This document shows, piece after piece, positions 10,069 to 13,000 of a stretch of DNA of 64,000 nt; position 1 is the first letter of the stretch, and each line of letters opens with the position of its first letter. This DNA is from Epinephelus fuscoguttatus (lineage: Eukaryota > Chordata > Actinopteri > Perciformes > Serranidae). The notes under the pieces are model-generated. The model saw only the letters and a list, made by a program, of their open reading frames with translations. It had not been told where the DNA came from and searched no databases. The translations under genes were made by a program, and so were the position numbers. Where the stretch lies: assembly GCF_011397635.1 (NCBI RefSeq), contig NC_064770.1, positions 19,747,707 to 19,811,706 of the forward strand, read 5' to 3'.

Positions 10069-13000
10069 ATGGGCAACACGCCCACCGCAAAGAAGGGCAA
10101 TGAGATGGAGAGCGGTGAGTACCTTTTACCCATAGCTGCAGCGGCTAGCTTATCATGCCGTCTGTCGTTGAATCAATCTGCTGTGTTGTCATGTTTCCCA
10201 CAATGGCACTAAAAACTAACCACCTATGTAATGCATCAAGGCCCAGAGACCTCCACAGTGACACCATGTTACATTGCTTTCGACAGCCTGTTCTAATATG
10301 GAGAAGTGATTGAGCAGATTATGCAAAACTTTCCTGAGTTGTGAACTTTACATCAAACACCATGAAAGACACCCATCGCCAATCACATCCTCACACAAGC
10401 TGTTAGTGTCACACCATGTTCATCTCATCAGAACAGCAGAGGATGTTATTCATTCTCTCCACTGATTCTGTGGGAAAGCTCGTGATTAAAAGCCCCAGGT
10501 TATAATCCGAGGAACCAGTGAGGGTGACAACAAGTAGCCTTATACAACAGTCATAGGTTTCTTTGTGGTTCACGTGCTTTCAGACAGTTTTATTCCCTCC
10601 TCATAAGGTTATGAAAGGCTCCACTAGCAAGCCTAAACTCTGGTGTGGAGTTTTCTTGTGCACTTTTTAATAACCTAATTAAATGTATTCAAAATATTCC
10701 TAGAAAAAGGAAATTGTAAGGAATGCAAACACTTGAAGCAGGAATGTAGGTAGACATATTTGTGTGTATATGTGATTGATGCAGTGTGGACCTGAGTATT
10801 GAGCCCCACAGACTGTGTTTGACAGTGAGTAGAGGGGAGTTGGTTGTTATCAGAGAGGGAAGAAGCCACCAGGACAGGGGTCATATGATGCATGAGGGTG
10901 ATCCTCTCCAGGCAGAAACTTGGGAGTTGAGGAGTCTCTTGAACATCATGTGATGAGCAGCATTTAGAACAAGGGCACTTGTATGTGTCACTGAGGCACA
11001 TGTTTGTGTGCAAAGCGGTAAGGAAGCGATGCTCCCCTCTTGCTCCCTACGACTTTTAATTTTGTTGATGAGCTTGTTGGACATCACAGTGACAGTTACC
11101 TACAGTCTGAACCTTAGTGGTTAACTAATATATGAGGGGAAAATGTCATCCTGTTTATGAAGAAAACACTTGCCTCAGTCCAAGTGTTTAGGCTTCATTT
11201 TCCATGTCAGGATCACTAGTAGTGCAGAAGGCTTGGGAGGACACTGTTTTATGTTTTTTATCCATGACACTATAAATAACGCTCAAGTGTGCAAAGTCTG
11301 AACAGGTATCTGCAAAATGAGTATCAGCTCCTTGTTGCTGGTAGAGAGTATGTGTGAAGAATGGCCTCTAGTCCCTTTGTAACATTAACCCATCGACTCC
11401 TGCAACACAGCCCGTGACCTTCAGGTATTATAGTTATAGTATGAGTAGTGTAGTATTAGTGTTATAGTTTGTTTTTAAAGCTCAAGAAGTAATGTAAATG
11501 AAACAGGGACAGAGAAGGCAGTGCTAGTAAGAGGCTTGTTCATATCATGCTTCACATCCTTATCAACCTAATTACTGAGGGTCCACCCTGCTCCGGAGAG
11601 TTGGGTGAAAACCAGAGGTCTGGAGCCCACACCCAGGAGTGCAATTTTCCACAGAGCAGCTATAGATTAAGGGGAACATGGCAGCCTGTTTTGGTCTGTA
11701 CAGAAAATGGAAAGAGGGTGTTGAGCGCTTGTTCCGGTGCACAGGGTCTCTTTCCCCTGAAGTTTCCAGGCTGGAGAAGACAAGCGCAGGGCCGCTGCAC
11801 TGGTACACAAAGCTGATTCCTGGCCCACAGGAGGAAGCAGGGCGGATAGACACTGTGAACCGCAGCAGGAAGTGAAGGAGCAAGGAAGGTCCAGCCCAGG
11901 TTTTTTGCAGTTGGTCATCGCTTCTACTGCTCTTTCAACTAAACAGTTAGCCATGACGATAGCGTGAAGTTTTTGCCCTTAAGACGCTGTTGGTGTAACA
12001 TATTCTGGATTTCCTGCTTGTGAAACCCTCCGGACATACTGCAGTTTTTGAGACTCTGCACTGAATATCAGCTGGCTTCCCCCTGCCTTGTATGATGTCT
12101 GTTATTCACAGGCTGGCGGGAAGGCTGTTTCACCGAGCTGGGCCCTGCCTGGTGGACACGGGCAGTGGAGAAGGCAGACATTACCAACCACAGGAGGAGC
12201 TAGAGGCTCGCTGCTGGTGTGAGTTTTCATTCTGGAGCTGGACAGGAGCATGGGTTAGGGATGGAGCTGTTGTCTATGCTATGTCTCTAGCTTAGCCAGT
12301 CAGAGGCTGCACTCATTCTGCGCGTTTAACACAGATAATCAAGCTGTTGTTTTCTGAATCATGATTGTTACTAGATTCATATCATGACCTGGTGAGTTGT
12401 GTGTCTGTCGGCATTGGCGGAGTGATCCTGTGTACAAATAGACACACAGAGCAGCCTGTTGTTTGTCTCCGCTCTGTTGCCTATTGTTTTCTAGTTACAG
12501 TTCAAAGGAAGGCATTTCTCAGTGACTGTGGAAGTGTCTGTCAGGCGCCAAGCTGCTCAGCATAACACTATCAGCCTTAAACTGTTGAGCTGTACATTAG
12601 GAAACCTTTCCAAAGCCACGTACTTTATTTGTTTTGTTAAAAAGCTCTCGTATCATTGTCTTTCACCGGTTGGGCTCCTGTGAGTCTACCTGACTGAATG
12701 AGTGTTTGATAACTTGGAAATATTATCCCATACTTCACACACTTCTTGAAACATCTGAGCACCACGCTTCCAGCCAGTTATGACATAAGGGATTGGAGTA
12801 TTGAATCTTTTGTGTTTTGAATTGAACCTCATATAATGAGGTGGCACCCTGTCAAAGTGCAACTCCCTCTATCTATAAATAACTGTGTGGTTCATGTCCT
12901 GCCCCTGCTCCGCACGCAGCCGGTTTGTGTAACAGGGGAAGGTTTGTGTTTGGATCGCTCATCATTTCCTGTCTCCAGTTAAAAGGGCTTTGTTTATAAG

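Follow-up and report, generated by a model that had tools for sequence, protein, structure and literature searches.

A candidate Cbeta2-like alternative first exon in the prkaca gene of the teleost Epinephelus fuscoguttatus

A long alternative first exon of PRKACA, exon 1-L, and its product CalphaL were described by Soberg et al. in 2017 from transcriptomes and genomes covering most vertebrate classes (PMC5526564). In that report, exon 1-L lies between PRKACA exons 1-1 and 2, is paralogous to PRKACB exon 1-2 and is inferred to be older than the gene duplication. The authors did not detect CalphaL in mammals or birds, and their survey left teleosts aside (PMC5526564). According to the same authors, the most conserved segment of the CalphaL and Cbeta2 leaders is a predicted helix with a universal phenylalanine, Phe30. 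Position 21 is always Lys or Arg in the published set, a regularity rather than a definition, and for a second regularity, Trp59, the authors make an exception of non-teleost fish (PMC5526564). The leader has been proposed to be disordered with an inducible docking helix (PMC5526564, PMC6143667), and a 2018 review restates the CalphaL claim (PMC6143667). The murine Cbeta2 protein has SRLFHRHSRGTAQE. These two papers were the only matches for a CalphaL N-terminal isoform of PKA in a search of the open-access literature from 2017 onward, and no report of a teleost CalphaL was among the matches listed for that literature; genome databases may carry predicted fish isoforms.

We analyzed a 64,000-nucleotide stretch of the E. 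fuscoguttatus genome (the window) that contains a prkaca gene, and located a candidate exon 1-L in the 10.3-kb intron 1 of this gene. Its coding part, 12092..12218 on the plus strand, is flanked by exons 1-1 and 2. The coding part of exon 1-1 (10069..10114, plus strand) comprises 15 residues and an overhang G, encodes the Calpha1 leader and is followed by a GTGAGT donor at 10115. Exon 2 (20429..20490, plus strand) begins TG AAG GAG, and exons 3-10, which run from the kinase core to the C-terminus, lie at 21015..28568 on the plus strand (outer tblastn limits, not exact splice sites). The candidate is well supported as a Cbeta2-like alternative first exon of prkaca, and we put the probability that it is a functional teleost exon 1-L, the first exon of CalphaL, at roughly 80%. 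The basis of this reading is the frame, phase, donor and position of the exon, its core match and a homologous exon 1-2 on contig C10 of the same genome.

The frame opens with an ATG at 12092, its 42 codons end at 12217, and a single overhang base, T at 12218, precedes a GTGAGT donor (12219-12224). Conceptual splicing of 12218 to 20429 joins the exon in frame with exon 2 (phase 1), giving Leu at the junction. An earlier note on this DNA had pointed out the 42-codon ATG frame, the GTGAGT donor and the one-base overhang needed to join exon 2, and our analysis confirmed all of these at the same positions. Upstream, an in-frame TGA (12062..12064, plus strand) bounds the frame, and there is no in-frame ATG between it and 12092. 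The peptide begins MMSV; it has no N-terminal Gly and hence is predicted to escape myristoylation. The first ATG has a T at -3, which is a poor context, and the second has an A at -3. As the last base of an exon, the overhang T is weak.

We compared the candidate with three described types of first exon. With the PRKACA exon 1-L of the published account, it shares the gene, the position between exons 1-1 and 2, the phase-1 junction, and a long leader that lacks an N-terminal Gly and carries a putative helix with the universal Phe (PMC5526564). It differs in belonging to a teleost, in having Val at the ungapped position 21 (Val4, not Lys or Arg) and in a Trp displaced by three residues; the published exon was described from transcriptomes as well as genomes (PMC5526564), and ours comes from genome sequence. 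Arg7 fits position 21 only with a three-residue gap, and it lies three residues nearer the core. Trp42 stands two residues before the exon-2 Lys, compared with five for the published Trp59. The human Cbeta2 leader has 63 residues and also has its Trp five before this Lys, whereas the window leader has 43. With PRKACB exon 1-2, in mammals and in the C10 gene, the candidate shares the RLFHR core, the position, the phase and the absence of an N-terminal Gly, but the window gene is the paralogue prkaca. PRKACA exon 1-2, which gives the mammalian sperm form Calpha2, and other 1-S exons are likewise alternative first exons without a myristoylation site. However, they are short (eight codons in human including the split one; PMC5526564), lack the helix segment and form a different exon class. 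Taken together, the window exon is probably a teleost member of the published exon 1-L kind, and as such largely expected.

A ten-codon frame was also seen in the same intron (18140-18170, plus strand), with an overhang G before GTATGA, and would give a short, Val-joined, 1-S-like leader. As a 1-S candidate it was not significant, because nine such short frames occur in the intron (0.87 per kb).

The strongest competing explanation is that intron 1 contains an open frame which acquired a consensus donor, the right phase and an RLFHR-like stretch by accident. An open frame alone would indeed be ordinary, since on the sense strand of the intron three frames that open with an ATG and span 20 codons or more, exon 1-L included, reach a GTRAG[TGA] donor in phase 1, and shuffled introns contain on average 2.7 such donor-ended frames of at least 15 codons. 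The whole peptide is similarly unremarkable. Its local score against Cbeta2 is 32, aligning 7 of the 42 residues. A background of 486,930 bases contained 84 such frames, of which 5, two of them with a common start, equalled or exceeded this score. We therefore dropped the whole-peptide alignment as sole evidence.

The core behaves differently. The segment LAGRLFHR (12113..12136, plus strand) is the counterpart of FASRLFHR in the putative amphipathic helix of Cbeta2, and places Phe13 of the leader at the universal Phe30. Aligned without gaps, the two segments have a BLOSUM62 score of 32. None of 487,070 background 8-mers reached this score (the best had 25), and among 1,500 versions of the intron with shuffled dinucleotides, only 1 had a frame that did. 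Window positions 12001-12300 on the plus strand were left out of both backgrounds, as was 52501-52900 of the C10 region (both strands for the frame background, plus strand for the 8-mer background). Over 12 residues the score falls to 30 against human Cbeta2 and to 26 against C10. The segment was not an arbitrary choice, because it corresponds to the helix that Soberg et al. single out (PMC5526564). Our analyses suggest that it is the core that stands out from chance, rather than the frame or the whole peptide. The resemblance to Cbeta2 claimed in the earlier note accordingly holds for LAGRLFHR, while the peptide as a whole is not significant on its own. The published occurrence of exon 1-L in other vertebrates also predicts an exon at this place (PMC5526564), and we consider a chance origin unlikely.

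We found no second close copy of the exon DNA or peptide in the 1.047-Gb genome, which makes the exon unlike a piece of an abundant repeat; this search skips common words and did not return the exon on C10, and it is thus insensitive to distant copies. Neither the window leader nor the C10 leader matched PDB sequences (E up to 10) or Pfam (E up to 0.01).

When one kinase exon was searched against the genome, 14 matches had an E value of 1e-6 or lower, and four of these showed 98-100% identity. The four are taken to be the PKA-C genes, one in the window (contig C19) and the others on contigs C3, C10 and C15. Over exons 2-8, the window gene is 92.3% identical to human Calpha and 90.3% to human Cbeta, and the C3 gene 93.0% and 91.8%, respectively. 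The C10 gene is closer to Cbeta (91.4% versus 90.6% for Calpha), as is the C15 gene (91.8% versus 90.2%). A six-row tree grouped the window gene and C3 with human Calpha (88/91) and C10 with C15 (91/93), with none of its three inner branches at the star threshold. Both the identity matrix and the tree used exons 2-8 only, and the exon joins carry a few stray junction residues. On these comparisons, the window gene is assigned to prkaca and not to prkacb.

The C10 gene carries a clear prkacb exon 1-2, encoding a Cbeta2 leader, between its exons 1-1 and 2 (C10:25070064-25070196, plus strand). It was found by tblastn in a 60-kb region, with the human leader as query (E 1.6e-5). This exon encodes MAQGKDQSFASRLFHRCRKSSQEQRGQESEVPQISEFTIMWDKF, has an overhang A in phase 1 and a GTAAGT donor, and yields Met at the junction, which matches human Cbeta2. 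It has Lys at the exact place of position 21. Eight residues precede FASRLFHR in C10 and seven precede LAGRLFHR in the window; the lead in human Cbeta2 is much longer than the eight residues in C10. When the C10 region was searched by tblastn with the window leader as query, the core alone matched (E 2.3). As nothing outside the core aligned convincingly, the two leaders have little else in common. The cores share six identical residues, and the codons differ at all six. Such a pattern is consistent with a constraint acting on the protein sequence of old paralogues, but could also result from chance resemblance.

We recognized no long first exon in the C3 and C15 genes (60 kb each, no Ns), where a strongly diverged exon could escape detection. 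The best core 8-mers in these regions, which include the intron from exon 1-1 to exon 2, scored 24 in C3 and 21 in C15, within the background; in the introns alone the values were 15 and 21. A stretch at 46556 of the C3 region (E 0.087) was rejected as a relative of exon 1-L, having no core and a stop-bounded frame without a matching ATG lead. A recognizable long exon is thus present in one of the two prkaca-like and one of the two prkacb-like genes, as judged by a method that may miss a strongly diverged exon.

The lack of a recognizable long exon in C3 and C15 would also fit a reading in which exon 1-L of the window is a homologous relic that is no longer used. The unkept positions of residue 21 and Trp59 and the weak context of the first ATG point in this direction as well. 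However, the exon keeps an intact ATG, reading frame, phase, donor and core, which a frame of 42 codons evolving neutrally would probably have lost in the time since the teleost duplication. We regard decay as improbable, and less likely than chance. An internal cassette is very improbable: a pyrimidine-rich stretch ending in the acceptor-like CACAG (12107-12111) lies just 5' of the core and could define an exon at 12112-12218 inserted after exon 1-1 and before exon 2, but its 107 bases break the frame, creating a stop within the cassette itself and a second one where it meets exon 2, so that it could act only as a poison exon.

On the favored reading, that of a functional exon 1-L, intron 1 of prkaca would harbor an alternative first coding exon together with a separate promoter. 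A transcript initiated 5' of 12092 would use the donor at 12219 and continue with exon 2 from 20429. Its predicted product, CalphaL, would have a 43-residue leader without Gly in place of the 15-residue Calpha1 leader with its myristoylation Gly. This leader is probably disordered apart from one basic amphipathic helix, and we take the residues after the helix to be a flexible linker. The best 11-residue helical moment is 0.82 in the exon 1-L leader, compared with 0.67 in C10 and 0.68 in human, and a value of 0.82 was reached by 0.05% of 55,177 background 11-mers, a figure uncorrected for the choice of the best among 32 segments. The helix would most likely dock the kinase to a partner or membrane through the linker, as proposed for Cbeta2 and CalphaL.

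A RUNX-ETS-like composite, AACCGCAgcAGGAAG, is located at 11858..11872 (plus strand), 220 bp 5' of the ATG of exon 1-L, and is a speculative, possible promoter element. It is one of two matches to the pattern in 244,000 bases on both strands, for a pattern that was composed after the site had been noticed by eye. We found no CpG island or TATA near exon 1-L. Cbeta2 has a lymphoid bias (PMC1557514), which such a site would suit, but this is only a hint.

The earlier note had regarded the long isoform as so far associated with PRKACB, and had suggested that the alternative promoter may predate the alpha/beta split. The first view is outdated, and an origin of the long exon before the duplication is already published, as the 2017 description of PRKACA exon 1-L indicates (PMC5526564). 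What our analyses would add is small: the apparent presence of the long exon in one copy per gene pair, and a short lead apparently without Lys or Arg at position 21. The seemingly asymmetric retention among the four PKA-C genes is the part worth following. Tentatively, after the teleost genome duplication prkaca and prkacb may each have kept the long exon in one copy. One Calpha gene and one Cbeta gene could then have become specialized for the long, non-myristoylated kinase, with the CalphaL helix drifting from that of Cbeta2 and perhaps a promoter of blood-cell (RUNX-ETS) type. A functional exon 1-L in this gene would extend CalphaL to teleosts, a group outside the 2017 survey in which gene knock-outs are easy. 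Since mammals and birds were reported without CalphaL (PMC5526564), a fish in which the long and the short first exon can be separated would allow the role of the conserved leader helix to be tested in a PKA-Calpha gene.

The neighborhood of the gene supports its assignment. The next identified gene downstream of prkaca is samd1, with an exon at 33260-33703 (plus strand; SAMD1_WH, E 2.8e-30), and SAMD1 and PRKACA are also neighbors in human. About 32 kb downstream of prkaca and on the same strand, we noticed dnajb1-like exons (60551-61535, plus strand; DnaJ_C, gene name assigned by eye). In human fibrolamellar carcinoma, a 400-kb deletion fuses DNAJB1 exon 1 to PRKACA exons 2-10 (PMC7197716). 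As prkaca precedes dnajb1 in the window, a simple deletion would not be expected to yield a DNAJB1-PRKACA fusion. Between samd1 and these exons, the minus strand carries a steroid 5-alpha-reductase-like exon (46008-46448; Pfam Steroid_dh, E 4.5e-11).
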